From Prostheceraeus crozeri (lineage: Eukaryota; Platyhelminthes; Polycladida; Euryleptidae): DNA of 64,000 nucleotides. The notes under the pieces were generated by a model. It saw only the letters and a list, made by a program, of their open reading frames with translations. It had not been told where the DNA came from and did no database searches. This document shows positions 18,496 through 38,141 of the stretch, one piece after another. The stretch is taken from positions 1 through 64,000 of the forward strand of contig CAJQUW010008615.1 of assembly GCA_907163375.1 (NCBI GenBank). Reading direction: 5' to 3'. Position 1 is the first letter of the stretch, and the number at the start of each line of letters is the position of its first letter. A program made the translations under genes and the position numbers.

Positions 18496-18501
18496 CCTGT
18501 T

Positions 18502-18860
18502 AGTAGTGATCCCATTGCAAAAGGAAGGACAAAATGCGCAACGATGAGTCATCATGCTGACTCAGCTCCCCCCTCTGGAAGGAACTGGCCAGAGATGTGC
18601 TGGAAGGATGGGTCCGAGAGAGAGGAAACCGTTTCCTCCCTCCCCCCTCTGGAAGGAAGGAGGAACTCTCCAGCAAGGGTAGGAATCTCTGAAAAACGAC
18701 AGAGTTAGAAAAGGTGGGTTTTGGACGTTTTGGGGTGAGAAAGGTCCTATTTCGGCATGAAGGAGGGCTCGGATGGACAAACGGAGGGCAGATTCCGATT
18801 CTACGTGCAATTCTGCATCGGTGTGGTGATTTCCAGCTCAATTGCAGAGAAAAAGTTCTG
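18502..18860 (+). repeat. Polinton left terminal inverted repeat
   Basis: Matches the reverse complement of 37821-38135. The first ~190 bp are over 90 percent alike by eye. The inner part aligns again at GGAGGGCAGATTCCG and GAGAAAAAGTT, with a replaced middle segment. It contains the word CCCCCCTCTGGAAGGA at 18568 and 18642, with a related copy just inside the repeat at 18865, which could be binding sites for a replication or integration protein. Confidence 0.9.
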
Positions 18861-19330
18861 ACTTCCCCCCTCTGGAACGAGACTTCGATCTTGGCTTGTA
18901 GGAATGGCAGAAAGTCGTGCGATAGCTCGTTGGAAAGCTAAGAGTGAGACAAATTCAGTGGATGAAGCGGCGTGTCTCTACGTTTGTTCGTTGAGGTGTG
19001 AGAGTGACTTTAAGATTTTTGACCATCACCGAAAAAACGACAGAGTTAGAATTTTTACAAAAATGGCTCTAACTTTTGAACGAAGCATCGCATGAGAAAA
19101 CTGAGACCAGATTTGAATCAGCGTGACATTTTACACCAGAATAGATGGGCTTTGAGGGTTGTGGGAGTGACATAAATACGCAAACATTACATCTTCGATA
19201 GCAAACAATCTCTTCCCATGAAAATACGAGACAAACGTTCAGCATTAGACTGTGTTTCATTCTAAACGACTAAAAAATCTTGTTAGAACTGTGTCATTCA
19301 TGCCATATATCAGATGTAATAGGAAGAAAG
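18861..19330. other. Polinton left subterminal region
   Basis: No gene. At about 19033-19080 it holds a second stretch related to the terminal repeat (CGACAGAGTTAGAATTTTTA, also partly at 18695), including the ACAAAAATGGCTCT word found in the right arm. The left end was therefore rearranged internally. Confidence 0.5.
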
Positions 19331-19752
19331 ATGACGGGTGCAGTAGAGTTTACGAATGAATTTTGTTCACTACGTTTTCATCGACAAAGTCTTCGAGGTG
19401 TGATTAGGGACTACATCATCTCCTTTCATCATGAAAAGGCAGACTTAGAATTTGCTATCGCTAAAGGTTACTTCGTTTTCCAACAGCTCATGTCAGTTTG
19501 ATGAATAAAGATGTGAAAGGACTATTAGTTGCAGAGATTGAATTTGAGAAAGTGACTGATGAACATGCTGGTGAACGTGTAGTGTTTCATTTTGCATCCT
19601 ATTCTGCAGAGACGACACATGATCCTAAGGATTTCTATTAGCGACATATGGCAAAAATTGCATCGCGACTAGATTCATTTCATGAGCATGGATCCAACTT
19701 GCTCTTATGTCGCATAAAACACATTCATATTCAACTCAATGTGCTAAACTAG
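19331..19752 (+). pseudogene. Module-A protein, copy 1 (unknown function, shared with PolB N-terminus)
   Basis: ATG 19331. Frame shifts near 19490, has a TAG at 19639-19641 and ends at TAG 19750-19752, about 140 residues if read through. The N-terminal half has a C-S-L-R-F-H..S-L.G-V-I-R-D-Y pattern. The C-terminal half has an FY..RH....I...LD.F...GSNL pattern. Both halves recur in order in the frames at 25641 and 34549 and in the polymerase N-terminus (32.0-32.6 kb). I infer a domain that acts with or imitates the polymerase N-terminal region. Unknown family, no catalytic residues evident. Confidence 0.62.
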
Positions 19753-19890
19753 ATTTGACTACAAGATTTGGGAAAAGCAATCATGAGTCAGTCGTCCGCG
19801 TGCCTCCTTTTCCATGGCGCAACGAAGTCAGGGGAGAAACGGAGTTCTCTGATTGGCTCTCATAGTGTCAAAAGTGGATTTACAGAAAAC

Positions 19891-19910
19891 TATAAAAGCA
19901 GACGTCTTTT
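19891..19910 (+). promoter_or_regulatory. TATA box followed by GACGTCT (copy 1)
   Basis: TATAAAAGCAGACGTCT lies just upstream of the first GFYSF-family gene. An inverted CCAAT (GATTGGCT) lies about 40 bp before it. The same TATAAAA plus GACGTCT arrangement is found at 26388 in front of the second GFYSF-family gene, so it is likely a core promoter. Confidence 0.6.
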
Positions 19911-20053
19911 CGTTGCGGTCAAAACCTGAGTATACCTATTGATAATTGGTTGCGTCAGCAGCTTGACATTTTAGAAGACGTTGTGAGGCAAAAGGCTCTT
20001 TTTTCTTGTTATAAACCTTTGTATCGCGGCACTCGCTGCTATATTTTACAAAG

Positions 20054-20358
20054 TGTATGCAGTCATGTTTCGTCCGAGGATGTATGATGTCTTCTGCTTG
20101 TGTTCCCTCTCTCTCTCTCTCTTTGTGTTGCCGTTGCCGGCTTTGCTGTGGTCTGTTGTGTGTGACGTCATTCTGCTGCCTTAATTGATCGCGACATCTC
20201 CTCTCTTCCCAGCTCTGCCTTTGACGTCATTATTAGTGAAAATGTGACTATACAGCTGAGACTCGTGTCTCACGCGCGCCTATTAATTGAATGCTGACTG
20301 AGTAATCAAATAGAAACAGAATCGACACAACACGCTTGTCCGTCTTTTTCCTTGTACA
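20054..20358 (+). repeat. 5' LTR
   Basis: 305 bp, starting TGTATGCAG and ending TTGTACA. It contains a (CT)8 tract and two TGACGTCA-type sites (near 20163 and 20223) that could bind CREB/ATF factors. It is nearly identical to the 3' LTR. Confidence 0.93.
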
Positions 20359-20379
20359 AGCTATCACGGCCTTCAGATT

Positions 20380-21138
20380 ATGAGACTGATAGATTAGGTA
20401 AAGAAGTTCTCCGGTGGAGCTGGCGAGGATGTCGAACAGTGGTTCGAGAAGTTTCTTCTCACCGCGGACATTGTCATTGAAAAATCAGAAGAGAAGACCG
20501 AGGCACGGCTAGCGAAAATCCTGCCTATCTTCCTTGAAGGACCTGCTTATGCTACATGGAAGCAAATGTCAACTTCGAAACAGGCAGATCTCAATTCGGT
20601 AAAGTCAGAACTGCTGCGCGTGTTCGGTCGATCGCGATGGCGGGCCTGGCAGGATCTGAAAGGAGTCAAATTCATCCCTGGAGATTATGTTGACGTCCTA
20701 GCAGATCAGATCAAGTGTTCGCTCTGAGTTATGGTTGGTGATGGAAATCCGACTCCAGACGAGCTCGTGTCCTTCTACTTGGTCGATTCCCTACCAATTC
20801 AAGTATCAAGCCAGGTCAAACTTCAGTGCGGGGAGACGATGGAGCTCTCATCAATCGTATCGTGCGCGAATTCCCTCCTCACCAACCCATCCGAGTTGAC
20901 GGACTTGGCTGCGGCAGGAACAGTCGGTAACCGCCATTACAATTCGGAGAGACCGCCAAAGCCTTGCTGTGGAAGTTGCCGTCGCGTGGGGCACAGTCAA
21001 CAGGAGTGCACGACCATCTGCTACGGGTGTGGAGAAATCGGCCATATTCGACCTTACTGTCGCAAACCAAGGAATTCGGGAAACGGACGTGCGGTGGCGG
21101 ATGTGCCGGATCGTGCTGCCCCTGCAACAACGCTCTAA
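20380..21138 (+). pseudogene. gag with two CCHC zinc knuckles
   Basis: ATG 20380 opens a frame stopped by TAG at 20395-20397. It then runs to TGA 20725-20727 and continues open to 21138. The first part (FSGGAGEDVEQWFEKF) resembles the capsid N-terminus of Gypsy Gag proteins. The C-terminus has two exact knuckles, CGSCRRVGHSQQEC and CYGCGEIGHIRPYC (C-x2-C-x4-H-x4-C), which bind genomic RNA. Two nonsense codons make it defective; one or both could be read through, but no readthrough context is obvious. Confidence 0.8.
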
Positions 21139-21470
21139 TCCGGGACATGTGGATCGACGGCTGCAGGAGAAGAGTGCTGATCGACACTGGATGCAGCAGA
21201 ACAATGATAGGTGAGCATGGGGTCAGGGGAGACGTCACGAACACTCTAGGCTAAGGCTTGAACTGATGAACAAAGATATGCTGTACACGAGAGGTTCTGT
21301 GTATCTACGCTCTGTTGTAACTGAGGATGGTGTTGATGTTGGTCCGGTCACGGCTCATGTTGTTCATCGCTTGCCGCTTGAGGTGGACGTTGTTTTAGGT
21401 CTATATGTCCTAGCTCGTAACGGCTTTGAGCTGTGTTTGCGTAATGGGGATATTTCTGTGACGCTCTCTA
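21117..21470 (+). pseudogene. Retroviral-type aspartic protease region
   Basis: The frame after gag, shifted by -1, holds the catalytic LIDTGCSRTM (active Asp in DTG) near 21178-21210. It stops at about 21254 and the rest of the domain continues in a third frame from about 21266 (VVLGLYVLARNGFEL resembles the flap and the last protease strand). It would cut the Gag-Pol polyprotein. The -1 step from gag could be a programmed frameshift, but the second break looks like damage. Confidence 0.7.
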
Positions 21471-22960
21471 AGACTGCTGCTGCTGCTGCGGCTAGTATCG
21501 ATACTTGCATGACCCCGCAGGAAATAAACATAGTGGATGAAGATTTTAGTGCGAGGTTTCAGGACGACCGATGGATTGTTAGTTGGTCTTGGAAAGGCGA
21601 TATCTCCGATGAGTTACACAAATATCCTTTAGACTATGTAAAGTCAGAGCATCGTGCGGATTTTGATAAAGAAATAGAGACTTGGGTTAGTGAAGGAATT
21701 TTAATAAAACACGATAGGCATAAACATGGTAGCATTCGTGCATTTTTGCCGACTATGGTTGTAGAGCAAGAGAAAAGTGGCGAGAAGAAAATCCGACCGG
21801 TGTTAGATTATCGTCGCTTAAATTCCGCTGTTAAAAGTTTTCCGGGAGGATCGATGCCTTTATGCACCAACAGGCTTCGCGAATGGCGGCAAAGGGGGTC
21901 AAATTGCTCTCTTTTAGATTTACGCAAAGCTTACTTACAAGTACATGTAGACGAATCCTTGTGGTCTTATCAATGTGTCAAATGGCGTAATGAGATTTAC
22001 GTGTTGACCAGATTAGGTTTTGGTTTATCAGTAGCACCAAAGATCATGACAGCAATTGTCAACAAAGTAATTTCGCAGGATCAAGAATTGATAGAAGCAG
22101 TTTCGAGCTATGTTGATGACATATTTGTTGATAACAGCAAAGTTAGTATAAATAAAGTTAAACATCATCTCATTTCGTGGGGATTGGAAACCAAGGAACC
22201 TGTCTATCTCAGTGATTTTCAGGTATTCGTGTGCTAGGACTACACTTAAATGAAAACCTTCTGTGGTCTAGAGACAACCCTATTCCATCTCTCCCAAGTT
22301 CTCAGCTTACCCGCCGTCAAATTCACAGCATTGTAGGAGAGCTTGTGGGTCACTTTCTTGTCGCTGGGCCGCTTAGGGTCTATTGCAGCTATCTGCGACG
22401 CCTAACGGCATTAGCCAAGTGTGAATGGGATGAAATAGTCCCTGATGAAATAGCTAAGCTTGTTGTCCAGTTGATTAATGAGGTCAAGACTAGCGGTGAT
22501 CCTGTGAGGGGCAAGTGGCTTGTCTCTCCTAATGAGCCGATTGTTGTTTGGGCTGACGCTAGTAACCTTGCCATAGGGGTAGCCTTAGCCATCGGAGATA
22601 ATATTATCGAGGACGCGTCTTGGCTCAGGCCACGGGATGACGCAGCTCACATAAATTTGAGTGAGCTGGACGCTGTCATAAAAGGTCTCAACATGGCCTT
22701 GAGATGGGGAAATAGGAAAGTTATCATTAAAACTGATTCTTCTACTGTTTATAAATTGGCTCATGGCTGTTATAAATAAGACGCACAATGTTAAGACCAG
22801 GGCCCTTTCGGAGCGACTGATTCGCCGCCGGCTTGACACTCTGAAGGAAATAATTGAGACTGAAAATATTGTAGTCGAACCTCATCTGGTGAGGTCAGCC
22901 GATAACTTGGCAGACAAATTAACGTGAGTTCCCAATCATTGGCTACAGGTTTCGAAAGAC
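21470..22960 (+). pseudogene. Reverse transcriptase and RNase H
   Basis: RT motifs: IRPVLDYRRLN, CSLLDLRKAYLQVHV, FGLSVAPKIM and SYVDDIFV (catalytic YVDD near 22110). Frame shifts near 22230. The next frame (22231-22779) carries the connection and RNase H with VVWADASNLAIGVAL, the ELDAV Glu and KTDSSTVY. A further frameshift near 22770 and a TGA at 22925-22927 separate it from integrase. This divergent Ty3/Gypsy-like lineage is judged from the RNase H sequence (DASNLAIG, HINLSELDAV). It copies RNA into DNA in particles. Confidence 0.85.
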
Positions 22961-24139
22961 TTAGTAGAGACTTCCAGAAAAGTAGCCGCAACAGGGGTTG
23001 CTAGCGAGTGCGAAGGAATTAGTTCTGATTTATTCGATAAAGTAAAATCCATGCACGAGAGATGTCATTTCGGTGTTGACCGCACGCTAGATTTAGCAAG
23101 GCAGAAATTAGGTAATACTGTATCCAAGAAAATAGTCAAGAAAGTGGTTTCCCGTTGTGACAGATGCGCCAGAATCGACCCATCCATTACTTTTAATTGG
23201 GATAAAGTTGATATTACTCGTAGCTCAGATATCTGGGAAAGGATTGCTGTGGATATCACGCACTTTAATGGGGCCCCTTACCTAACTCTAATTGACCTTA
23301 TGTCTCGCTATACGATATGGCGCTTGCTGAATAATGAATCCGGGACTGAAGTTGTTGCTCATCTTTCACAGATAGTCAGTGAGTTTGGCCCACCTAAATC
23401 AATTTTATCTGATAACGGTACTGTGTTTCGTAGCCGAGATATGATAGAGTTTCTTAAGAACTGGGAGATTGAGCATGTCCAGGCCTGTGCTTACAGACCA
23501 CAGGGTAATGGTGTTATAGAGAGAATGCACCGTACTGTCAAGCGATGCGCTAGGCGAGCTAATAGATCCATCGATGAGTCGATCTTTTGGATAAACAGTA
23601 GTCGAGATGGCAATAAACACAGTCCGTACGAACTTATGTTCTCCGCTAACTCGAGGAAACCAGGCATAAGCAACCAGAGACATATCATAATGCGTCAACC
23701 GAATGAGAATATACCTGACTCAGATTCTCTTCAGTCTGCTTATTCGGATATAGATAGGAACCCCTTCACCGTAGGTGATAGGGTGTATCCAAGGAATCCT
23801 ACTGGTAGGTATGACAGCGTTTTGTCGTGCCCACATAGAGTTACCAGTGTTAGATCTAGTGTTGGGGTGATTATTAATGATGACGGTGTGACCCGTCATG
23901 TGTCTCACTTGAGACCCGTTCCCGGTGAGCAGTTTGAGAAAGTTGAAATAGATGGTGTTCGTTCTGAAGAAGACACGTGTGCTAAGGAGAATGTGAGTGT
24001 ACATGTACTTAACCCTCGTCGGAGTGAGAGGACGAGACGCGCGCCTGACAGGTTCGGTGATCTTGTAGTTTATTGTGCTTGTGAGGTTTGTAGATCTGGG
24101 GGGCGTGTATGCAGTCATGTTTTGTCCGAGGATGTATGA
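22928..24139 (+). CDS. Integrase of the LTR retrotransposon
   Basis: Open from after the TGA at 22925-22927; an internal ATG at 23051 falls at the zinc-binding region. The HHCC domain is MHERCHFGVDRT ... CDRCARID. The catalytic DDE core is AVDITHF, LSDNGTVF and, 35 residues further, GVIERMHRTVK. A basic C-terminal tail follows, and the frame ends inside the 3' LTR at 24139, so the last ~11 codons are LTR-encoded. It joins cDNA to target DNA, consistent with the 5-bp duplication. This is the best preserved part of the element. Confidence 0.85.
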   Translation, partial: VPNHWLQVSKDLVETSRKVAATGVASECEGISSDLFDKVKSMHERCHFGVDRTLDLARQKLGNTVSKKIVKKVVSRCDRCARIDPSITFNWDKVDITRSSDIWERIAVDITHFNGAPYLTLIDLMSRYTIWRLLNNESGTEVVAHLSQIVSEFGPPKSILSDNGTVFRSRDMIEFLKNWEIEHVQACAYRPQGNGVIERMHRTVKRCARRANRSIDESIFWINSSRDGNKHSPYELMFSANSRKPGISNQRHIIMRQPNENIPDSDSLQSAYSDIDRNPFTVGDRVYPRNPTGRYDSVLSCPHRVTSVRSSVGVIINDDGVTRHVSHLRPVPGEQFEKVEIDGVRSEEDTCAKENVSVHVLNPRRSERTRRAPDRFGDLVVYCACEVCRSGGRVCSHVLSEDV

Positions 24140-24410
24140 TGTCTTCTGCTTGTGTTCCCTCTCTCTCTCTCTCTTTGTGTTGCCGTTGCCGGCTTTGCTG
24201 TGGTCTGTTGTGTGTGACGTCATTCTGCTGCCTTAATTGATCGCGACATCTCCTCTCTTCCCAGCTCTGCCTTTGACGTCATTATTAGTGAAAATGTGAC
24301 TATACAGCTGAGACTCGTGTCTCACGCGCGCCTATTAATTGAATGCTGACTGAGTAATCAAATAGAAACAGAATCGACACAACACGCTTGTCCGTCTTTT
24401 TCCTTCTACA
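24106..24410 (+). repeat. 3' LTR
   Basis: 305 bp, same as the 5' LTR except two base changes; followed by the duplicated CAAAG at 24411-24415. The integrase stop codon lies 34 bp inside it. Confidence 0.93.
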
Positions 24411-24702
24411 CAAAGCAAATATTGTAGAGTCACTTCAGGAGTGACAGTTGAACAATCAGTTGAAACAGAATTGTCATCGCCAGGTGCAGGCTTTTACTCC
24501 TTTCATATTGAGGTGCCTGCTGTTTATGTGGGACCTCATCAATCTGACGGTAATTTGATTTCTCTCAATTTGCTCGTTGCTCAAATTCATCATCAACCTG
24601 AGTTAACAGGACTTGATCACATTGAGAAAGTCATTTATTCTTGTGTCAAAGAGTGTCAAGAACCTGTCACCAAACCTAAACGTCGTCGCGCATCAAAGAA
24701 AG

Positions 24703-24882
24703 ATGGTGTTACCACCAAAGAGAAATCTTAAGTATTGTAATCAGTTAGTATGTAGTGAATGTGGAAAACGCGTTCTTGTGCGTTATGTTCAATTAAAACA
24801 TTGTAATCATGTTGTATGCATCTTTTGTTATGTAAAGGACAGACATCCTTGTAAAGTTCCTGCTCAATGTATTATCTTGTAA
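24703..24882 (+). CDS. RING-like zinc-finger protein (Polinton cargo)
   Basis: A frame of 59 codons from ATG 24703. The cysteine/histidine order C-x2-C, then C-x-H-x2-C-x2-C, then C-x5-C (CSEC, CNHVVCIFC, CKVPAQC) resembles a short RING finger, although the last pair is spaced C-x5-C instead of C-x2-C. RING proteins usually recruit E2 enzymes for ubiquitin transfer. It overlaps the end of the GFYSF-family frame by 29 bases in another frame. A pyrimidine-rich ...TTGTAG directly before the exonuclease frame suggests it could be spliced to that gene. Moderately confident of a zinc-binding fold, less of E3 activity. Confidence 0.5.
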   Translation: MVLPPKRNLKYCNQLVCSECGKRVLVRYVQLKHCNHVVCIFCYVKDRHPCKVPAQCIIL

Positions 24883-24904
24883 TTAAGTCTTTTTGATATT
24901 GTAG

Positions 24905-25467
24905 GTTGTCATCTTCATAGACAGTGAGGGGACACCAATGCAGGAGTTGAGTGCTATTGCAATGAGGGAAAGCGATCAAACTGTTGTTAGTGTATATCAC
25001 AGATTTGCCTACTGTCCTCCACACAAAGACGAATGGTCACGGCGTCATGTGCATGGACTTGATCCTTCTATTTTGATTCATGTTGGATTTGTAAATGAAA
25101 CGTACTTGACAAGTGATTTCAAACGGTGGCTGTCAGGTTTTCATATTTTAAAATATTAGGAAATGATTCTGAACGAGAAGCAACAACACTTCAGTTGCAC
25201 ATTGATAATTTATATTTACCATGTTGGGTAGATCGTGTAAGACAAGACTATCATATGCATTGTGATCAAAAGAAGTTTAGAGATGAAATGATTTTTGATA
25301 TGTCTGTATGTTTCGGTGAGAGACATCACCTTTACAGACCACCATCCCATTGTAATACTAGAAATAAAGCTACCTACATTGCAAAACTCTCTTCACGCTG
25401 GCATTGTAGTCCGTATGATGTTCTTGAACTGTATCTATATTATTGTCAACAGCATGGGTATATGTAA
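24905..25467 (+). pseudogene. DEDDh-type 3'-5' exonuclease-like protein (Polinton cargo)
   Basis: The frame opens right after TTGTAG (a likely 3' splice site) with VVIFIDSEGTPMQELSA, matching exonuclease motif I (D-x-E). A frameshift near 25150 separates this from the second frame (25126-25467). That frame contains ILGNDSEREATT (candidate motif II Asp) and HCSPYDVLELYLYY, where H-x4-D fits motif III of the DEDDh class. Also conserved-looking are HVHGLDP and an LPCWVDR block. I recognise the DEDDh order but not a named family. A replication/repair or RNA-degrading role is inference. An AATAAA at 25549 may be its poly(A) signal. Confidence 0.6.
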
Positions 25468-25640
25468 AACATGTTTTTACTCCTTGCGAATGAGTGATGA
25501 TCTTTTTATGAAGTGTATTCTGTACTTGTGAATTTTGACTGATGTTGAATAAACTTACAGTGGAACATGATTGTTATTTCTGTATTATTCATAGTGGAAG
25601 TCATTGAAGCAATGTAAAATCTATAGTCACAACGTTTACG

Positions 25641-26085
25641 ATGGCGCATCGTACCTCAAGTAACCACATGTGTCATCTGACACTTGATCAACAAGGATTC
25701 GATGGATTTTTCCAAGATTGGAAACTTACATTTAAAATGAAGATGAATGATATGAAAGTAGTGCTAACTGAAAGCCTTCCTCTCTTCAAAAGATTGATAG
25801 AGAGTTTACAACCTCAAGATGTGAAGGGTAGACTCGTTGCTTGTATAGAGTTGACAGATTTGCAAAAACCACCTCGTTTTGGATCCTATTGCACAGAATG
25901 GATTTCTCTTAGTGATCAATTTTATGTACGACATATGGAGAAGACGATATATGAATACGATGGAGACGATGGAGAGACGAATAGAAGAGACGATGGAAGG
26001 AAATGCATACGTTGTTAAACATATCATGATTCAACTGAGTGTGTTTACATCCACGACTTTGTTTGATCGTCGACAAGTTGTGTAG
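25641..26085 (+). pseudogene. Module-A protein, copy 2
   Basis: ATG 25641. Open to 26018, with a frameshift in a GA-rich low-complexity stretch (about 25950-26000, GAGACGATGGA-like repeats), after which matching sequence (VVKHIMIQLSVF) continues to 26085. It aligns with the frames at 19331 and 34549: the C-H-L-T-L..F.GFFQDW opening, the ESL..F..LIESL helix, then FY.RH. It lies directly before the second GFYSF gene, as copy 1 lies before the first, so the pair was duplicated together. Function unknown. Confidence 0.6.
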
Positions 26086-26387
26086 ATGCAATAAGAATTT
26101 CTTTTCACTGAGTATTTTGTAATGGTGTATAGAGCAACATGAGTCATTGCGCTTTGTGCATTACTATCAGGCTCTTTGCTAGATAAATGAATGCATCTTT
26201 GTTCGCTAGAAGGGGTGTGTCACTAAAGCCATTGTGAGGACTAGAACGACTTTGTAAGAGGGCAGTCAGTCACAGGGAAGGTTTTCACCCACGCAGTGAA
26301 AAGTTCACGTGTGATAACTCTTTGTCACGTAACAAAGACAGAGAAAACATGAAAAGGGGAACGCATGTGATTGTAGCTAGGTCTGGT

Positions 26388-26408
26388 TATAAAACGGACG
26401 TCTAAGCT
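26388..26408 (+). promoter_or_regulatory. TATA box followed by GACGTCT (copy 2)
   Basis: TATAAAACGGACGTCT ends a few bases before ATG 26410. It is the second instance of the arrangement at 19891. The very short distance to the ATG means either a near-leaderless transcript or a start further downstream. Confidence 0.6.
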
Positions 26409-26409
26409 C

Positions 26410-27006
26410 ATGGTAATCATTTCCGTCCTTGCGCTAACCATGCAGTTGCTCGAAGCCATCAACTCCTCTGCTCTCGCACTGGGTACACTGAACTCCCTTC
26501 CTTTAGCATCGGGTAAAAATGCTTTCAATCAAAAGATAACTCATCATGGAGAAGTCGTGACCACAGAAACTCCAAGTCATCGGATGGATTATCTAAAGGT
26601 TATGTCAACACAGTATGGTATCGCTGTGTGTGTACCGTTAGACTATTGGACACGGTTACAATTCAATACTCTTGAAACATTCCTGAAAGAAAATCTCACC
26701 ATTCCCAAAGAAATTGTTCGACACAATGGGAAGCGGTCACAAGTTCCCATCATGGAAAGACGATACATGTGTGTGCATATGGATGGACACTGTCTCATCA
26801 TCCATGAAAAGGAGGGCAGCGAATTCGACTTACTCAATTGCAAGCCTCTCCCCATATTTGGAAAAGGATTCTACTCCTTTGAAATTCAAATTCAAACCAT
26901 CCACATGGGTCCGCGCAGGGACGGAAGGTTGTTTACGTTGAATCCCTATCTTGTCTCCATAACCTTTAAAAATGATGTCCATGTTGATGATGATCAACTA
27001 CAGTAA
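26410..27006 (+). CDS. GFYSF-family protein, copy 2 (unknown function)
   Basis: An intact 198-residue frame from ATG 26410. The N-terminal 25 residues are hydrophobic (VIISVLALTMQLL) and could be a signal or anchor. The C-terminal 60 residues carry GKGFYSFEIQIQTIHMGP, parallel to the split copy at 19.9-24.7 kb. No cysteines arranged for zinc and no catalytic motif seen. It is positioned between module-A copy 2 and the TBP-like gene, all in one direction, so a functional link is likely. Because it is conserved as two paralogues in one element it is probably a real structural or DNA-handling protein, but I do not know its family. Confidence 0.6.
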   Translation: MVIISVLALTMQLLEAINSSALALGTLNSLPLASGKNAFNQKITHHGEVVTTETPSHRMDYLKVMSTQYGIAVCVPLDYWTRLQFNTLETFLKENLTIPKEIVRHNGKRSQVPIMERRYMCVHMDGHCLIIHEKEGSEFDLLNCKPLPIFGKGFYSFEIQIQTIHMGPRRDGRLFTLNPYLVSITFKNDVHVDDDQLQ

Positions 27007-27278
27007 CACTCTCCACACACACTGAGAACGCACCATCGGTCTTTATGAGACCACGGCCTAACGGCCACCTTATCAAGAAAGAAAATGTACACTCACCATG
27101 CCACACATGAACATGACTCTCTCCTTTCTTGGGCATTATATTCTTCACTCAGGTTTGAATCATGATCATGTGGAAATTATCAGCATCCCTCTATGCATCA
27201 TGGAAAAGTCAGTGTGCTACATTTCATGATATGAAACGTCAACTTTAGATAACTCTAAAACGCTTTCAACCACAAAGG

Positions 27279-27596
27279 TTGCATCGCGCTATCCTATCCA
27301 ACTCTTGCCGTGTCATTAACGTAGGAGAAGGCATTGTATTTGTTCGCATTCAAGAGATGATTCTACATAATGATCACTGCTACATCGTGATTCCAAAACC
27401 CTCATGGGAAAAGTATAAAAGGGATGTTCACTCAACCCTCATGTCTTTTATGAATCATGCTTCCCATCCGCATCATCAACGCCATGCGCGAAATGAATCT
27501 CAGAAGAGACATCGATTTAGAACAGTTGCATACCCATCTTCCCGATTCAGTGTATCATCACGGTCGTCCACAAGTGTTCGTCATTCGCATGAGTAA
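27279..27596 (+). CDS. Upstream frame overlapping the TBP-like gene (unknown)
   Basis: An open frame whose first ~50 codons (RVINVGEGIVFVRIQEM...) look protein-like. After about 27455 it becomes Ser/His/Arg-rich because it runs in another frame of the TBP-like gene. A TTTTAG just before its start may be a splice acceptor. It could be a separate short protein or a 5' exon. Low certainty. Confidence 0.25.
   Translation: MHRAILSNSCRVINVGEGIVFVRIQEMILHNDHCYIVIPKPSWEKYKRDVHSTLMSFMNHASHPHHQRHARNESQKRHRFRTVAYPSSRFSVSSRSSTSVRHSHE
27414..27420 (+). promoter_or_regulatory. TATA box upstream of the TBP-like gene
   Basis: TATAAAA at 27414-27420, 37 bp before ATG 27457, the spacing expected for a short-leader transcript. 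It coincides with the coding sequence of the upstream frame, which argues that one of the two readings is not used. Confidence 0.45.
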
Positions 27597-27996
27597 CGGT
27601 CGAAATCTTCAAATCTTTCGCTGCGGCAAAATCCAAGTCCTAGGAAACCTTTCTCATTTCGTGATGCAGTCCATGTGTTACGAAGTCGTCAAGAAAATGC
27701 GAACACTCATGCCTTATCTACGCCTCAGTCCCCTGACAATAAAGAATATAGTAGTGTCTGTTCAATTAAAGATGTTAGTTAATCTAGCAAACATTAAAAC
27801 CAGCAATCATTGTATATTTTATGAAACTGAACTCTTTCCTGCTGCTCTGATTCGGAAGTAGCATCCTATACATATTGCAGTGTTTCACAACGGACATTGT
27901 ATCATGACTGGTTTACGTGATATCAGTAAAGTAGCTGACATTGTTAAATCTTTAATGCGTTGCCTGTATGAGTCACAGTTAATAGAATCATGCTAA
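27457..27996 (+). pseudogene. TATA-binding-protein-like protein (Polinton cargo)
   Basis: ATG 27457. The frame runs to TAG 27859-27861 and continues open in the same frame to TAA 27994-27996, about 179 codons, the size of a TBP core. Both pseudo-repeats of TBP are recognisable. Repeat 1: VFVIRM then LQIFRCGKIQVLGN, parallel to the F.SGK...TG hairpin. Repeat 2: IKNIVVSVQLKM, the FYETELFPAALIR stirrup region, and VFHNGHCIMTG after the stop. The intron-less frame and diverged sequence argue against a host TBP exon. A TBP fold would bind TATA DNA and nucleate transcription. It has one nonsense codon, so this copy is broken. Confidence 0.75.
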
Positions 27997-27999
27997 TCA

Positions 28000-29100
28000 C
28001 ATGATGTGTTTTGAATGAGTCATCGCAATGATCTATCGCCCACACACTTGTCGGTGAAAAGGCCACGCCGTCTGACGTGAGGCGCCATCGATGTTGAATG
28101 AAACGCCCACACACGTGTCGGTGAAAAGGTTGAACAAGACTGATAAGATTCTTATCTAACTGACTGGCGCATTGCCACTTCATGAGTCAGATCGATTTAT
28201 AGACATGAGTCAGCAAAGTGGTTGATGTTTCCTGAGCCGAAGAAATTGTCATGATGTTACATTCGTTGGAAACATGAGGATGTTAACTTTTTACCTTACA
28301 AACTCTGACATGGTTGTGACTTTATTTTTTACTTTACCTATCTTGCAAACAGTGAAATTCTTGTCACTTTATTTCATACTTTGCCTGTAAATTGCCAAAG
28401 TCCACAATCTATAGGGATAGGGTTACCTACGGTTGGGATTTAGGGATTTAGGGTTTTATATAGCACAAGCGAATGTTAACCGTTAGTATAAAGTACATTT
28501 ATCAGCTTAACCATTTGTGAATGGCATTATTCCTAACATTACAAACAACTACTTTATTTCTAACTTTACAGACAGTGAGATGATCCTAGCTTTATTTTAT
28601 TCTTCACCTATCTTGCAAACATTGAAATGCTTGTCACTTTATTTTATACTTTACCTATCTTGCAAACTCTGAAATGATTCTAACATTAGTACAAACTTCA
28701 CAATCATCAACTTATTTCTAACCCTACCCATCTTACAAAATGATCAAAACTTTTGCTTCTGTCTATTGAGTGAGAATCCCATCTTTATGTCAAAAGAAAA
28801 ACGAGACAGTCTGTGCATGATATGTTATTGAATGAAAGACGTTTCATCACAGTCACACATAGTTAATACTATACACGGAGAAAACAAAGTCACTCATGTG
28901 CAGGGAGAAAACAAAGTCACTGATATGCCGGAAACTGTACAGGGACAAGACAAAGTCAGCAAAAGCACTGGATACCCCATCGATGATATGTTGTGATCAG
29001 GAGTTGGACGTATGTTACAAGGCACTCACTTACAACATCCCATAGAAAACGCTATGGAAAGAAAAACAAAACATCAACCACAACAGAGAGGAAGCATTCA
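28000..29100. repeat. Convergent intergenic region with imperfect tandem repeats
   Basis: This lies between the rightward TBP-like gene and the leftward polymerase. The word CGCCCACACAC.TGTCGGTGAA occurs twice (28037 and 28104). Units of ACTTTACCTATCTTGCAAAC are repeated at about 28335, 28607 and 28660. A GGGA.AA.ACAAAGTCACT word occurs three times at 28877-28957. No coding frame. It may serve as terminators for both strands or as a replication-related region. Confidence 0.55.
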
Positions 29101-29103
29101 TCA

Positions 29104-32100
29104 TCATGCATCGTCGGACGGAGGAAGAGAAAGTTTCTGTTTCTTGGGTGGAGGTAGATGTGTGTCTGGATGGCCATACGGCAATGAGTTGTTAGGACTC
29201 ATCCAGCATCGCTTGTCTTCCCAAGGAGAGAGTGCCCGTTTCCTAAACGTTGTTGTCGTGACTTCGCGTGCCTTTGATTTTAAAATCGTCATATTGACTG
29301 AACTTATTTTAGTTGAATTTGTAGCATATCAACAGTCTGTGTGTGTCATTTTCCTAACGATGGACTTCAAGATGCCTTCGCCCGTTTTATGGAAGGCCCT
29401 GATGATTTTAACTTCATAGAGTACATCTTGGGGCGAAGCAAGATCATCTTTTTTATCCTATTGCCGGCGCATTCATCTTTGAAGCAACCGAGCTTTGCTT
29501 TATTTGAGGTCGAGGAAAGCGGATGCTCTGTGGGATAGTTGGAGCTATCAAAGTGTGGCTCTAGCTGGTGCAGAGTATCTTCCTTACTGACTCCTTTCGT
29601 AGTGGTGAGTGCGAGGAAAAAGCTATCAGTATCCCCACCTACCAATTCTGCATGATGGATGAGTGGGCATCATTTCATCGTGTGGTAGTAGAGGTTGTGC
29701 ATCTCAAGCTTGGAGTGATCTAAAACGGCTTGACCTATGTAGATGGGTTTGCACAACTCTACTTTGGGTTTTATCATCTTAATGCCGGCCAGATCTTCGG
29801 TAATGACATCAGCATATACAAAGAGTAGCGAACGATGCATTTTTCTAGCTACCTCATGATCAGTCACCAAATTATAATTGATGCGTTTTCTTACATCCTC
29901 CATGGTTTTACCAAAGAGGGAATTGTTCTTAAATTTGAAGAAATCCTTTTCAAAAGGATTCTTGGAGTCAGCGCGTTTCTGGTTATTAAAATCTATGTAA
30001 GGCTTCAAAAAGGCCTTTTGATGAAATTGAACACCCCATGAACTTTTTGTAACTGCATGCCCATCCTTAAATAAAATTTGAGAATTTTGTAATGAACAAT
30101 GTAATGCTCCTTATCATACTGGGTGAGCAGCAGCTTTCTAGCAGGATGATATTTCATTTTATTTTTTCCTTCATACTTAGATTTTAGTTGCTCCATGAAG
30201 GGAGAATACATATCTTCAGATTATACCAGACTCCGGAGCAAGAGGAAAGTCTGATGTCTTATTCTTAATACAGTCTGGATAGGTGAGGTCGACTTCAAAC
30301 AAATAACCCATGTCGGCCTCATTTTCCAGTCCTAAAATGCGCTGGGGGTTGGAAAAGTGTTCAACCTCATGGGGTTCAAGCCAAGCGAAGTGGGATTGTG
30401 GCAAAGGTTTCGACAGTGCACTTACATATAAATTATTTTGGTCGATGTACATCAGGTGGGTGTCAAATTCACCATCGACTTTTTCATTGACAACATGCTT
30501 GTTAACAAACGTCAGTCCACCTCAGATCCCGCGTTCAAACATGGTGTATATTTCGGGATCGTCTAACAAATGTATTTTTTCCCTAGTCATTTTAAAAGCT
30601 AACTGGTAGGACAAACCCGGTAAACTAATGTAATTGACGGGGTCCAACGCGTCCTCCTCCAGTGTAACTTTCCTAAAAGCCTCAAAGACATCGGCTAAGA
30701 GCAAAATATCTAATTTTAAGTAGGCAAGCATATAGTCACTAAACGAGTGACAACCTAATTCTTGCCATGCCCGCTGTGCATGCCTATAGCCATCAGGCGA
30801 ACAGTCCTCACCCGTCAAATCGTTCCTAAATTTATCAATGGATGGAAGGGATGTTTCTTTCAATGTTTCAATTGAACTAAAATAACTATAAGGAAACACC
30901 CCTTTCCGTCGCATGAGACTGTCACTAATAGTAGGATAGTCTTTCTTTAAATTTTGTGTGAGGGGAAGTAAGTCTAAATTATTAGCCAAAGTGGCTAAGG
31001 AAGAAGACATAAACTGGAAACTGTCCATAAACTTGACATCATAAAAGACAGGTTTCCCCTCCTTCGTCTTGTCAACGTGGACTTTGGCCGACGGAGACAT
31101 GAATTTTTCCTTACTTTGCGCTATGACATTCATCGAGCATGACTTCATATGTCCTAGACCATCGCGAAGAAAAATATGCGCATCATAACATTTAAAGTTA
31201 TGAAAGATGAGGGGAACGTTCGCCGTTTCAGCCTAAGTGAGATATTACACTTTCTGCACAAGGCAGACCTAAATTTACCACCGAGTTGGCAATGTTTCCT
31301 CACTTTCCTATGCTGCTTCTCATCAAAGGATGAACAGCAGCGGGGACATTATGTGATCCTATCAAATTTTAATTTGTCGACTTCCGTGAAACACATGGGT
31401 TTCCTAGTGAGCTCCGTTTCATAGAGTTCATAAAAACGGGCTTTTTTATCTAAAAATTTTAAAAATTCTAAGATGCAGTCTTCACCTTGCCACACATGCA
31501 GTTTATTTTGGTTCCTATGGCAAGAATGCCAAACTTCATAACAGGCAATGGCTGCAGGTTGGTGAGTCTGATCTTCACTACCAATATAGCATTCAATGTC
31601 CACATAAATGACACAAATAGAACTCAGCTCATTGCCTTTTTCTTGATACCTATACAACTCATCTTTGGGCATCACTTCCATTTGAAGCTTACCCCGAGAG
31701 CACCACTCGCAATGCTGTTGAAAAAATGCTTTGGATGTGAAACGCCGTGTGCAGCGATCACAGGAACAATGTTTGTTATTAAAACTTTGTTGGTAGCGAT
31801 ACAACTTTGAAATTTTAGGAATGCGACAATAATGCCATTCTGGGTGGTTGTCGCTACACACTAGGAGGAGATTGACAACCCGGTCGAAGATAATTTGGCG
31901 GACTTGTCATACCTAACGCCCTTCAGACCTTTTTCCCAGAGATGGACAACTATCTCAATTTTATTTAATTTTTCAAATTGGATGATGTCTTTGAAATGTA
32001 ATGTGTTGACATCTAGCCCGTCAAACTTAGCTCATCCTCCCATTCACGATACTTGGTGACTCTTTGACGATGCACACTTACATCATCATAGTGAAGAATG

Positions 32101-32333
32101 GAGAGGACGGCATACTTGAAACACTGGGACTGACACTCTACATTGATGACAGCCTTTTTGTCAGCCAGTGCTTTGGGCAGGGTGAAACAACCGCTCCCTT
32201 CTAAATTTTCTAATAAATTAACTTTCAGATCTACTTTCTCGATCTCATCAAAGACCAGTCCGCTGTCTCTTTCATTGAATTTATTCAAGTTGTTGACGAG
32301 ATAGGTTGCATGTCTCTCTATCCACTCGTTCAC
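29104..32333 (-). pseudogene. polB: Family B DNA polymerase (protein-primed type), exonuclease and polymerase core
   Basis: Reading leftward: N-terminal segment (32333-32013) with LPKALADKKAVINVE and CFKYAVLSIL; a C2H2-like element CDRCTRRF...H near 31750; ExoI YVDIECYI (31.6 kb); ExoII region near 31170; ExoIII YLKLDILLLADVF (30.7 kb); polymerase motif A YIDQNNLYVSAL (30.44 kb); motif B FKNNSLFGKTMEDVRKR (29.92 kb); motif C GGDTDSFFL (29.63 kb); and the C-terminus RALSPWEDKR ... LPYGH (29.16 kb). Motif order matches protein-primed PolB of Polintons and adintoviruses, which copies the element from its ends. At least seven frameshifts or stops break the gene. It is continuous with the zinc-finger part upstream. 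Confidence 0.88.
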
Positions 32334-32346
32334 ATCACCTATGAGA

Positions 32347-33928
32347 TCAGCAGCACAGGAGGCTAATGGTCACAGTGGACTCTTCTTCTCCCGTACTGCT
32401 ATCTATTTTATTGAAACAAGCAGAGACATAAAACATGCCTTTGAGCAAGAACCTATCTAAACTCGCCAACATTTGATGAATTGAACTTACATTATTTGAC
32501 AGGAATGGATGAATATCCTGTACAGGTTCAGAGCTTTCCATCTCATAGTCACGAACGAGCCTCTCAAGGGAGAACTTGCTCAGCCTTAAAGTGACGTTGC
32601 TGTCAGTGTAAAGCTCAGTGGAATGTGTGTGACAGAGTGTGTGCGAAGAGAGAACAAACTCTGTGGGAAAGGTCTTCCGACACGAAGAACAGGAAAAGCC
32701 GACGGGTGGTGAGCGATGCTTCCTACTTGTTGTTGTCGGTGGTTGCCTCACACTGCCACAGGATCCGCCTTCGATGTGGACTCGCAAGTTGGTGCTGTTG
32801 CAGAACGTGCGTGCACAACCTTCACACTTGGGTCGTTGAGGGATCGGTCGGCGCTTTCCTCCTCTGCAGGCATTGTCAGCGGTGTGACGTCTCAAACTGT
32901 AGGCTGAGGCGAAGACCCTGTCACACCGCTGGCATCGAAAGTCATCTTTCTCCACTTCGACTTCAATCTCCCTCTCCCCTCCGACTATCTCCAATTTCTG
33001 CTCCTCCAACAGACGCTCCACCGACTCGACGGAGAAGAGAGGGAGGTCGTATGCTGCTGCAGCAGGTGGTGGTGGCAATGCTGGGATGATGTTGGGGCGG
33101 GAGGGAACGTCCTCGTCCAGGAGGTAGGTTGCCAGATCTGTTGAGAAAAGCAGAAAAGAAATTAGTAACATGATCATAATTTCAAGTTTGAAGTCTTATC
33201 CCCCTATTTCCCAATCACGATTACTTACCATCTAAGGAATTGATCTCCGGCAACACCGATGGTCGAGGAGGAGGCAGGAGTGGGACACGAGCCGAGGGTG
33301 GAAGGGTCCTGGGCTTGGGTGTCGGAGGGACGTGGTGACGGGGAGGAGGGACTGGTGAAGGGAGCGGAGCAGGTGGTGGAGGTGGGGCGATGACGGTGCC
33401 CGAGAAATTAGTCGGACTTTCAGCGGAGGTAAATGGGCGGGAAGGTAGGGTCGGAAATTCAACATTGAATCTCCGCCTCGCTGTTTCTTCCCACTTCTTC
33501 ATCCTTGCCATATCTGTAGACAGGAAAAAGAGATGAGATTAGAGGTTGCGGAGACAATAATGATAAAGAGTAAGCTATACGGATACAGAAGCGCTAAAAC
33601 CTGACATACCAACTCTCAGTTATCATAGGAGAGGGTACTTACACTTGCCAAGCTGCTCGTAAGCTTACCCGATTGCTCCTTGGGGGTTCGGTTCTTTCGA
33701 ATGCATTCATGCACTGAAAATGAATGAGAGCAAAGATAAGCAGAGTTAAAATTTGGATTCTGTCTAAACATGAACAAAATAAGGGAGGGGCTCTTGATTT
33801 TAATTGGGAGGTCTGCCCTAATGATGTTAGTAATGGAGTCAACCTTGATACAAATACTTACATTGCTCGATGGTAGCCTTCTCTATCTCGACAGCAATGT
33901 CGTAATTTTCAACTTTGTTGAATTCCAT
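32347..33928 (-). pseudogene. polB: PolB N-terminal part: C2H2 fingers, spliced 5' exons
   Basis: ATG 33928 begins exon 1 (33928-33862), which ends at GTAAGT. Exon 2 starts at 33713 after TTTTCAG and ends at 33669 (GTAAGC), which keeps phase. Exon 3 is 33513-33229 (Pro-rich, ends at GTAAGT). The long exon starts at 33137 after CTCAACAG and joins in phase with exon 3. It contains three C2H2-type fingers (CQRCDRVFASAYSLRRH, CEGCARTFCNSTNLRVH, CSSCRKTFPTEFVLSSH). It then has a module like the free-standing module-A proteins (VTLRLSKFSLERLVRDYEM; FLSNN...LASLDRFLLKG). A 1-base frameshift near 32343 separates it from the core. Confidence 0.75.
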
Positions 33929-34361
33929 GACGGATAGTTAACAATAAATAATGAATTGTAAGACCTCAATCACTGAAAAGGAAAGATGAGAATCGTTTCA
34001 TTTACCTAGTCAACGTTTGGGAACAATCATTGAAGTGACATCTAATGAATTATATTTCACTCTACTCCATATCATAAAGACTAACCTTTGTCGAATGGCT
34101 GAAGTACTCTGACCTGGCGAGAGAAATCATCACGTTGAGTATGAAGTCGAACGCCCAACATGAGCAACGGCTCAGAGGTTTCGGTCTAACAAACGACGAA
34201 CAACACGTGCAACACAATCCTCTACGGCAGTACCCGCCGTCCCGAAGGAACGCTCGAGCAAAGGAGGTATTACAGCAATGATATGTTTTATGAGCAGAAG
34301 TGAATGTCTCTTGATAGCAAGAGACTATTCAATTTGATAGCAGGAGCTCACCGACACTCAC

Positions 34362-34410
34362 CTTGTGAAAGATAAATGTGAAGAGCAGAGCTGGTATACT
34401 GCCTTTTATA
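34362..34410 (-). promoter_or_regulatory. PolB promoter and first donor site
   Basis: On the minus strand TATAAAAG occupies 34410-34403. An inverted CCAAT (GATTGG) lies ~45 bp upstream, near 34452. About 40 bp downstream is a strong donor, AAG|GTGAGT, ending an untranslated exon at 34362. Further candidate sites (AAAG|GTTAGT near 34086, CTTTTCAG near 33975) suggest more 5' exons. The divergent module-A gene at 34549 may share this promoter region. Confidence 0.55.
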
Positions 34411-34548
34411 AGATTTTCCTAAGCGGTGAATGAATAAGACCTCTCGTCCAATCACAGACGAGTTAGAGTTCCCGATGCGCGCACGCACATTTGTAACGCG
34501 TTATTGAAATCGTCTTAGGCAAAATGATGTTTAGCAATAGACTCAACC

Positions 34549-35016
34549 ATGGGACCTGAAGTCAATACATTGAAACATGATGATTGCACGATTCGTTTTC
34601 ATCAAGAGAGCTTCGGAGGTTTAATACAAGATTACATCCTTGAGTTTCAAAGAGAGGAGACAGAATTGGAAGCATGTTTAGACTATACACGAGAAATATT
34701 TACGGAGTTGATATCTTATTTCAAAGACAGTCTCATCAAGGCTCACTTAACTGCAAATGTCAATTACATTCATTTTCCATAAGGTGAAGAAGCGGAAAAT
34801 GTTGACTTTCAATTTCGTTCCTACGGACAAGAATATGTTACTGATGCTTCTGAGTTTTATAAACGACATCTGCAGAAGATTATTTCTCGGATGGACAACT
34901 TTCATGGTTACGGCGATCACTTGCTTCTGAATAAAATAAACCATATTGTCAATGCTATTAGTAAAACGGGTTTCAATGATGTTAAATCAAAGACCAAACA
35001 AAGTATTTTTTCATGA
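34549..35016 (+). pseudogene. Module-A protein, copy 3
   Basis: ATG 34549, in-frame TAA at 34780-34782, then the same frame continues to TGA 35014-35016, about 155 codons. Opening CTIRFHQESFGGLIQDYIL parallels copy 1 (CSLRFHRQSLRGVIRDYII). The second half, FYKRHLQKIISRMDNFHGYG, parallels copy 1 and the PolB segment after IERH. It is the cleanest copy of the three. It is transcribed away from PolB from a shared intergenic region. Function unknown; the resemblance to the polymerase N-terminus suggests binding the same partner or DNA. Confidence 0.62.
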
Positions 35017-35173
35017 CACTTTTTGCTGACTATACTTTAGAGGTAACGAGCCTCTACTGATACCATGTAGTCGATTTCCATAAAAGGTAGACTTGTCACC
35101 CTTCGTGGTAGCATTATTCATCAATGGTTTATCATGTTGAGTTCAATCTTTGAAATAAGTATATTTGAAACAT

Positions 35174-35437
35174 CACATGTCTCCCTATGTTTTTTCTGCT
35201 GATTTTACTAACTTACGTTTTCTTCAATACTTGTATAGCAATCGACTGCGATACATTAAAGTAATTTATGCGTTCAGAGCTTGTTCACTACCGAATAGAG
35301 AAGTCTGTGATGTGCTGCATGTGGTGCAAGGGTGGCCTCCCGTTTCATCCGTTCATCATTTAGCCTCGGTGATAGAGGCAAGCAGAACTCATGGTTCATT
35401 CTCAGACAGCGTATGCAATGGAGAATTTAAAAAATAA
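35174..35437 (+). CDS. Hypothetical ORF in Polinton right half
   Basis: A frame of about 87 codons from ATG 35174 with an aromatic-rich first half (FTNLRFLQYLYSNRLRYIK) and no recognised domain. It follows module-A copy 3. It could be a degraded member of one of the other families or chance. Confidence 0.25.
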   Translation, partial: HMSPYVFSADFTNLRFLQYLYSNRLRYIKVIYAFRACSLPNREVCDVLHVVQGWPPVSSVHHLASVIEASRTHGSFSDSVCNGEFKK

Positions 35438-35816
35438 CCTGTGGCAGATAGCTAAGATTCAACCGATTGGCGTTCAAACTGCTACGTTGAGCGACGAGAC
35501 CACAACGACCGTTGGAAAGTCGGATTAAGGTAAGCCTCAAGCCCTTGCCACTCTCATCACTACGATATCATCCGCTGTCTCAAGAGAGATCGCCCACCAA
35601 CAGGAAGAATTATACCGAAGTTCTCCGTGCCATGCAACGTTAAAGTTGACTGATAGCAGATACAACTTTGTGATTCTATTTTTATTTATATGATAGATTC
35701 AGTCAGACCGAAGCCTGTCCAGGGCAAACCGCGAGGAGGTACTATCATGTCTTGCCCCATGGTGGCCCTTAAGAGGACCGATGGTTCGTTCTCGGGATGA
35801 TGTGGGAATATGGGAC

Positions 35817-36832
35817 TCAAGCTTGCCGCTTCGTCTCCGGCTCGTTGACGGAAGCAAGTGGGCGCTTCTCATTGATATCTGTTAAGAAAGAAGTTGTTAG
35901 TTATCATCTTGACTTCTGAGTTACTTATTTTTAACTTACAGAGCTTCTCCGGGCGTGGCTCATGTAGGAATCCTGTGATGTCTTCCGAGTGGTTGAATGT
36001 AAAGTGAAGACAGTCAATACCCTTCTTCAGCCTGGAGTAACACCGCTCGCCTCTTCCTCGCTCGTAGAGAAGTGGCTCCGCTATCACCTCTCCCTTCTTG
36101 ATTGGGATGTGTAGACGAATCGATCTCTGTCGCTTCCTATCACTGCCCTGTACCTTGCAATGTAGCTCCTGATTGCTCTCACTCACCTCAGCCAACTGCT
36201 TCCGCAGCCCTTCGATCTCCTCTCTCATCCGCCTCATCTCCCTCTCTCTTTTCTCCTTCTCAACTAGCAAGCCTTCTTCTCTTGCATTGCGCGACAGGTT
36301 CTCGAACCTTTCACGCTCCAACTCGCCTTCTTTTTCATTTAACGCCTCCGTCACCTTCTTCAGCTCCTGTGTCATTCGCGAAAAATTTTCTGATTTCTGC
36401 TTATAGTAATAAGCATTCCAGCTTTTCATGCTTAGCAAGCAGTGGTGGACGATCTTGGAATGTGCGACATTGAGTCACAATTCCGCTACTACTCGCTGAC
36501 TCTGTCTCGATATCGAGATCAACTTTGTGGAGCGGACGAGGTTTGTTGGCTCCTTCCTCAGCCTCCCCCTCACTCTCGGTACTGGTCTCACTGAGACCAG
36601 AAGTCGACTGTGGTGCTGACTCGCTCAGGGCTGGAGTAGCTTCTGGTGGTACAGTTGCAGCGACTGGCCGCTGATTTTCAAGCGTCTTCAGTTCTATGGT
36701 GAATAATCTTTCTTTCTCTGCCTCTGTGAGCTCTTCCTGCTCACATTCACTGTGTGTGGAGTGCCATTCCGTCGGTGTCTCTATTAGGCGTGAAACTTGG
36801 TATTTGCTGCAAAAGTAGCGCAACCCACCCAC
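35817..36832 (-). pseudogene. Coiled-coil protein gene with a 61-bp intron (Polinton cargo)
   Basis: The first segment (36832-36401) has an acidic, Ser/Glu/Pro-rich middle. The second (36438 down) is a long heptad-type coiled coil (ELKKVTEALNEKEGELERE through EGLRKQLAEV, about 90 residues), followed by a globular tail (ERCYSRLKKGIDCLHFTF). A 1-base frameshift near 36430 joins them. The intron 35939-35879 (GTAAGT...TTAACAG) removes a premature end and continues in phase to TGA at 35819-35817. No ATG start is evident, so an upstream exon is likely. Function unknown; coiled coils suggest oligomerisation or a structural role. Confidence 0.5.
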
Positions 36833-37820: not shown

Positions 37821-38135
37821 TTGACTTTTTCTCTCCGATTCACTTGAAACTCGCCCTCTAGATGCAAAATTGCACGTGGAATACGGATCTGCCCTCCGCT
37901 TTCGTGTCCGAGGCTGCGTTTACCCGCTAGAGCCATTTTTGTAAAAATTCTGAGGTTCCTTCCCTTGCTGGAGAGTTCCTCCTTCCTTCCAGAGGGGGGG
38001 AGGGACCGGTTTCCTCCTCTCGGACCCATCCTTCCAGCACATCTCTGGCCACTTCCTTCCAGAGGGGGGAGCTGAGTCAGCATGATGACTCATCGTTGCA
38101 CATTTTGTCCTTCCTTTTGCAATGGGATCACTACT
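37821..38135 (-). repeat. Polinton right terminal inverted repeat
   Basis: The reverse complement pairs with 18502-18860. It contains two copies of the TCCAGAGGGGGG word (complement of CCCCCCTCTGGA) at about 37995 and 38060. The outer end at 38135 abuts the duplicated CCTGTT. Confidence 0.9.
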
Positions 38136-38141
38136 CCTGTT

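Follow-up and report, generated by a model that had tools for sequence, protein, structure and literature searches.

A TATA-binding protein-like gene carried by Polinton elements in the genome of the flatworm Prostheceraeus crozeri

The Polinton insertion and its genes

The window analysed in this study (the whole stretch of 64,000 nucleotides at positions 1 to 64,000 of contig CAJQUW010008615.1, assembly GCA_907163375.1, Prostheceraeus crozeri) carries a complete Polinton insertion at 18502-38135, with AGTAGT...ACTACT ends and a 6-bp target-site duplication, CCTGTT, on both sides (18496..18501 and 38136..38141). The left terminal inverted repeat (18502..18693, forward strand), which starts with AGTAGT, was 94.3% alike to the right arm (37948..38135, reverse strand, ending in ACTACT) over 192 nt. 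The Polinton/Maverick traits found in the element were these AGT-repeat inverted ends, the 6-bp duplication and a protein-primed type B DNA polymerase gene with an N-terminal zinc-finger part (29107..33195, reverse strand; Pfam: DNA_pol_B_2 7.5e-10, zf-C2H2 1e-08), which is broken over several frames.

A TATA-binding protein (TBP)-like gene is located at 27457..27996 on the forward strand. Its frame is intronless and is broken by an in-frame stop at 27859-27861, and it is therefore not an intact gene. The first-pass annotation had placed it between Polinton genes, and this was correct: the polymerase gene lies downstream on the reverse strand, relatives of other element genes lie upstream, and the element ends at 18502 and 38135 enclose them all. 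A TATA box, TATAAAAGG (27414..27419, forward strand), stands 43 nt ahead of the TBP ATG. It falls inside the coding region of the gene upstream (27162..27770, forward strand), which overlaps the TBP gene in another frame and, like it, is interrupted in the window.

The remaining element genes belong mostly to families with no assigned function. A family recognised by an RDYI motif was present three times within this one element, as the remains of a gene at 19328..19746 (49% to a frame of L031), a second copy at 25641..26018 (27%), located by the search at 25653-25964, and a third at 34567..34947 (35%), all on the forward strand. A second family, F3, was present twice on the forward strand, as the 3' part of a gene at 24411..24704, cut by a retrotransposon, and as a copy at 26410..27006 with TATAAAA 22 nt ahead of its first ATG. 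Two element genes (position 26388 of the window, and L010:9221 on the reverse strand) have in common a promoter-like block around TTATAAAA with GACG after it. The gene at 24905..25443 (forward strand), starting VVIFIDSEG, is split over two frames with 48% and 38% to a frame of L031; it had no significant Pfam family and was read by eye as a putative DnaQ-type exonuclease.

The retrotransposon that splits an element gene is a nested LTR element (20053..24404, forward strand) with direct repeats and polyprotein frames. Its LTRs are 300-nt direct repeats (20053-20352 and 24105-24404) given as 100% alike; an exact string check at these positions was negative. Outside the Polinton, long frames at 38788-42038 on the reverse strand resembled, by eye, a non-LTR retrotransposon reverse transcriptase. 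Because of the stop codon, the broken polymerase gene and the nested retrotransposon, the TBP copy of the window was regarded as a fossil, and function was judged from its relatives.

Identity of the TBP-like gene

The first-pass annotation had described a TBP-like gene carried by a mobile element, a reading which the analysis supports, with corrections. The sequence before the stop (27457-27858) matched PF00352 with an E of 2.8e-15 (56.3 bits, cut-off 22.9), while the sequence after it (27862-27993) matched the end of the same model (E 0.0048) and was, taken alone, under the family cut-off. The claim of two-repeat TBP homology thus stood, but the in-frame stop had been overlooked, as had the second frame overlapping the gene and the lack of matches in this element to capsid or integrase genes; the description of a CGK...G hairpin occurring twice was loose for the second hairpin, which reads NGH...TG in the window.

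An uninterrupted relative of 179 aa in public data, P0001, was 96% identical across the piece of the window that was queried. It matched PF00352 in two stretches with 78.3 bits, over the curated cut-off, and so contains two repeats. Against the PDB it matched 35 distinct sequences at E ≤0.01 (best E 1.1e-10). The molecule name contained TBP or TFIID for 34 of these, some of them fusions, and the remaining one was named only ECU04_1440 protein. A chance open frame was ruled out by the Pfam match and by the relatives in public protein data. The presence of a TBP-like gene carried by a Polinton was confirmed, and we regard it as almost certainly a Polinton-borne TBP.

Copies in the host genome and capsid-bearing Polintons

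The host assembly (G000; 2.05 Gb in 14,165 contigs) contained at least 150 TBP matches, a lower bound since 150 of 10,982 first-look candidates were scored. Four of the 150 listed read as cellular, two on C9306 (the host TBP) and two on C3829 (TRF-like), which left at least 146 cargo TBP copies; eight of the 146 listed, including that of the window, carry a stop within the match. Seventeen 10-kb stretches that include cargo TBP genes were fetched and their frames clustered. In nine of them (L013-L019, L027 and L028) the TBP gene was found near an opposite-strand, capsid-type gene set, and the other eight (L009-L012, L020-L022 and L026) were window-like.

All nine capsid-type stretches had protease-family frames (one tested: Peptidase_C48, 8.4e-05), a large gene without assigned family (831 codons in L028) and a gene which, from position, size and motif, we take to be that of the major capsid protein. 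Eight of the nine had integrase frames (one tested, from L019: rve 2.2e-12, Chromo 6.2e-07), a basic small protein and a gene which, by the same reasoning, we take to encode the packaging ATPase. No Pfam match was obtained for the capsid-type and ATPase-type genes of the full elements. A pX-like frame in L031 matched Adeno_PX weakly (E 0.0023, under the cut-off), and the polymerase-type frames matched no Pfam families other than zinc fingers and DNA_pol_B_2. The full elements (e.g. L013 and L016) are adintovirus-like Polintons, in which an integrase with a chromodomain was present.

The L013 capsid-type protein had at least 98 copies in the assembly (98 scored of 19,356 candidates), and every one of those listed had its full length, no interruption and 99-100% identity, which suggests a recent Polinton burst in the host genome. 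The 1-kb stretches beside 12 of the 98 listed copies, spread by eye down the list, were fetched, and a TBP frame was present in all 12 (11 with an open frame of 234 codons, the twelfth with 279 codons), these neighbourhoods being near-copies of one family and not independent lineages.

Nineteen full-element proteins were searched by tblastn against the window element (E up to 1e-3). Eight matched, namely the polymerase (two parts), the zinc-finger part, the TBP, the upstream gene and three further families. No match at that threshold was found in the window element for the other 11: two capsid-type proteins, the integrase, protease and ATPase, the product of the 831-codon gene, two neighbours, and two basic proteins and a membrane-type protein, the last three being without a positive control in the searched subjects. 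With no match for the integrase, protease, ATPase and major capsid genes, the window element was filed as a capsid-less derivative, and the pattern of matches indicates that the TBP gene is retained together with the replicative genes where the virion genes are missing. For the other window-type copies, the analysis covered about 5 kb on each side of the TBP gene, extended in one case by a further 5 kb and 2.5 kb.

Three window-type stretches (L020, L021 and L022) were near-perfect inverted duplications, with arms of up to 4162, 2924 and 2554 nt that were 99-100% complementary, each holding two facing TBP copies around polymerase-type sequence. Beside one capsid-less copy (L029:4037-5000 and L030:1882-2309), the right tandem units of about 265 bp matched the left stretch in inverted orientation.

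Relatives beyond the host genome

A profile of 16 TBP relatives retrieved 247 proteins at E up to 1e-5, and the best 120 of the 247 all had E ≤2.5e-65. A capsid-type profile retrieved 852 proteins, of which the best 120 were compared with the TBP relatives for co-occurrence. The longest contig for each protein was taken and lengths were compared between 121 TBP and 120 capsid entries. Eight exact coincidences were observed, all longer than 3.5 kb; among 2000 shifted-length controls the highest number was four, reached once. These coinciding lengths indicate that the TBP and the capsid-type gene are probably on the same metagenomic Polinton contigs. No TBP relatives were detected in IMG/VR contigs or GTDB genomes with profile A1, or in phage records with P0001 as query, and a piece of the window polymerase, a neighbour gene and a host TBP exon, used as IMG/VR probes, also gave no match.

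Origin of the cargo TBP

The cargo TBP is intronless and the host TBP is in separate exons, as would be expected if a host TBP or TRF gene had entered the element as a processed copy. P0001, however, shared only 26% identity with the host TBP across 144 residues, in contrast to 87% between host and human TBP, and relatives are present in metagenomic data. In a phylogeny of 29 rows, which included long branches for the TRF-like row and L015, the 23 cargo rows were split from the six cellular rows by a branch with 100/100 support. The low identity and this separation rule out a processed TBP or TRF copy, for which we see next to no chance, and a recent capture of the host TBP is refuted. The alignment scores of P0001 were 128 and 127 to two archaeal TBPs, compared with 98 to the host TBP. 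An ancient capture from some cellular TBP is possible.

TATA boxes and the overlapping gene

By an automatic rule, TATAAA was found 43-47 nt ahead of the TBP ATG in 17 of 25 cargo rows, from all three lineages (A, B and C), or in 14 of 22 places when three places fetched twice were removed. One further row had TATAAA 58 nt ahead of a later ATG and seven were negative by the rule, although four of these seven (L019, both of L021, and L026) do show the box, another or no start codon having been chosen. No TATAAA was found upstream of the TBP gene in the remaining three (L011 and both of L020). A TATA box therefore precedes the TBP gene in most of the copies examined. Several other element genes were without a TATA box close to their start.

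The upstream gene, at 27162-27770 in the window and with equivalent frames in L010, L015 and L016, has about 200-250 codons in open copies, and continues, out of frame with TBP, across about 107-112 codons of the TBP core. In four overlap frames from the three lineages no stops were observed where 5.8-6.4 were expected (P from 1.2e-4 to 5.6e-4 each). Past the end of the upstream gene, in the same contexts, T-ending codons occurred about as often as expected (observed/expected 8/5.9, 7/5.9, 5/6.7 and 7/9.3). A C-terminal motif of the upstream protein was common to all three lineages.

Codon-level support for the overlap was mixed. Changed codons among same-residue codons were compared between the overlap and the single-frame part, in pairs that are not independent. 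They were depressed in the overlap within type B (10/1390 vs 51/905) and for A-C (333/841 vs 307/691). No depression was observed for A-A (60/1296 vs 33/868), C-C (6/280 vs 4/175) or B-C (374/693 vs 260/491), and the pattern was reversed for A-B (891/1551 vs 385/919). In the single-frame part, 13 type B copies (three of 16 having been left out because their lengths differed or the frame was missed) showed 6 synonymous and 7 non-synonymous polymorphic sites, with a neutral share of 0.25, so that these young copies look neutral. As the codon-change patterns were mixed, the overlap was judged mainly by the absent stop codons, and a second gene overlapping the TBP gene in another frame is likely to be real. 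The upstream protein had a by-eye likeness to the coactivator PC4; this identification was rejected and the likeness is only a lead, since no such Pfam family and no PDB match were found at E up to 10.

Predicted fold and residue conservation

An AlphaFold2 model of P0001, built with 123 relatives, was confident (pLDDT 94.1, pTM 0.83), and its strands and helices follow one another as in a two-repeat TBP, in a saddle-like arrangement. Conservation was then counted over 124 aligned rows. The roles in Phe intercalation and in contacts with DNA, TFIIA and TFIIB are those which we take the residues to have, the TFIIB contacts being described also in the papers cited below.

Conservation of the two repeats was lopsided. 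In the second repeat the Asn, the Val, both Phe and the Thr were present in all 124 rows, and the TFIIB-contact Glu residues were each kept in 122. In the first repeat the Asn was present in 111 rows (the other 13 being gaps) and one Phe in 124, while the other intercalating Phe was replaced by Pro in 121 rows and the Thr was found in none; three of the four intercalating Phe characteristic of the TBP family are thus kept. The TFIIA-contact Glu was also found in none of the 124 rows, 99 of which have Lys. The lost Phe and first-repeat Thr could weaken DNA bending.

Proposed role of the Polinton TBP

We consider it reasonably probable that a Polinton/adintovirus-like family encodes its own TBP as an element-specific promoter-selection factor working with host TFIIB and RNA polymerase II, the window holding a decayed copy. 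The TBP would bind TATA-type promoters of the element's own genes, including its own promoter, and so direct the transcription of the element. Its intact C-terminal repeat would bend the DNA and dock host TFIIB, and thereby RNA polymerase II, while the altered N-terminal repeat would no longer answer host TBP regulators such as TFIIA. No TFIIB family was found by Pfam among the element frames scanned, which were part of all frames; together with the kept TFIIB-contact Glu, this points to the use of the host's TFIIB and polymerase II. Judging from the sequences, the most likely mechanism is a transcriptional role together with host TFIIB. Such a factor would probably be active early, during the replicative programme, given its retention in an element whose virion genes have been lost.

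The same residues might instead indicate a TBP-fold decoy or regulator which titrates out host TFIIB or occupies the element's DNA, and which lowers host transcription or limits copy number with no initiation. Nearly all rows have lost the first-repeat Thr and one intercalating Phe, and kept TFIIB contacts would fit a sponge too; we nevertheless regard a decoy as unlikely, given the second-repeat DNA-contact residues present in every row and the TATA boxes ahead of the TBP gene itself. The persistence of the TBP with the polymerase gene where virion genes are absent may also reflect a non-Pol II polymerase, or a role in replication or packaging (e.g. origin marking) with the saddle as a DNA-bending device. 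This is somewhat less likely still, as the near-universal TFIIB-contact Glu would be needless for mere bending.

The promoter-selection reading can be extended to a promoter system with one borrowed part, which is put forward tentatively and with rather less than even confidence. The C-terminal half would recruit host TFIIB and polymerase II, the N-terminal half would be blind to host TBP regulators, and the gene would have its own TATA box and an overlapping partner gene, in a system common to capsid-bearing, capsid-less and many-environment Polintons. If the proposed role is true, small integrating DNA viruses or transposons carry a promoter-recognition factor, no initiation factor of their own having been found in their descriptions. 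It would also provide a testable handle on how an element is switched on in a genome full of copies, and a natural TBP in which the two saddle halves are uncoupled. The results suggest that these elements, numerous in the host genome and equipped with a strongly diverged TBP of their own, help decide which promoters the host transcription machinery reads.

Comparison with known systems

In common with cellular TBP and TRF (PF00352), the Polinton TBP has two repeats, a predicted saddle, the TFIIB-contact Glu pair and the Asn, Val, Phe and Thr DNA contacts of the second repeat. Unlike them, it is without one intercalating Phe and the Thr in the first repeat and without the TFIIA-contact Glu, and its identity to the host TBP is low.

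TBPs have been described in large viruses, including Megavirus chilensis (PMC11464507), an algal virus (PMC12085832) and the mirusviruses, in which 59% of genomes have one (PMC10132985). According to the available sections of PMC7221094, the TFIIB-contact residues are for the most part lost from viral TBPs, host regulators are unlikely to contact the N-terminal lobe of these proteins, and nearly all TBP-bearing viruses encode a TFIIB-like protein too; Polintons, Mavericks and virophages are not named in those sections. The Polinton TBP resembles the described giant-virus and mirusvirus TBPs in being encoded by a virus-type genome, in its conserved DNA-contact Phe and in its diverged N-terminal lobe. 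It differs in being carried by elements of 15-20 kb and not by large viruses, to which viral TBPs would thereby be extended if the reading is true, and in keeping the TFIIB-contact Glu with no TFIIB in the frames scanned. Of the two features of the orthogonal viral TBP-TFIIB system outlined there (PMC7221094), an own TFIIB was not found in the Polinton frames scanned, and the Glu residues, lost or changed in that system, are each kept in 122 of 124 rows. The herpesvirus TBP mimic ORF24 of KSHV acts at viral promoters with host Pol II, is without the TFIIB-contact Glu and, in the available text, is reported as unlikely to bind TFIIB (PMC12529657). It is TBP-like, as is the Polinton protein, but the Polinton proteins keep both Glu residues.

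In the available text of PMC10675990, TATA-binding proteins are mentioned for heliorhodopsin-bearing elements of putative mirusvirus origin rather than for the Polinton-like viruses of that study. Within the open-access literature searched, we found no description of a TBP carried by a Polinton or an adintovirus, most subscription papers being outside that search. Vertebrate Mavericks have a 6-bp duplication and AGT-repeat ends, and the eight core genes named in the available text do not include a TBP (PMC8097293); adintoviruses are defined in PMC11071296 (available text) by a PolB with an N-terminal OTU-like domain. The elements described here share with both (PMC8097293, PMC11071296) the 6-bp duplication, the AGT-repeat ends and the type B polymerase and, in the full elements, the chromodomain integrase, the protease and the capsid-type genes. 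They differ in the presence of a TBP, neither TATA nor TBP appearing in the main texts of these two papers.
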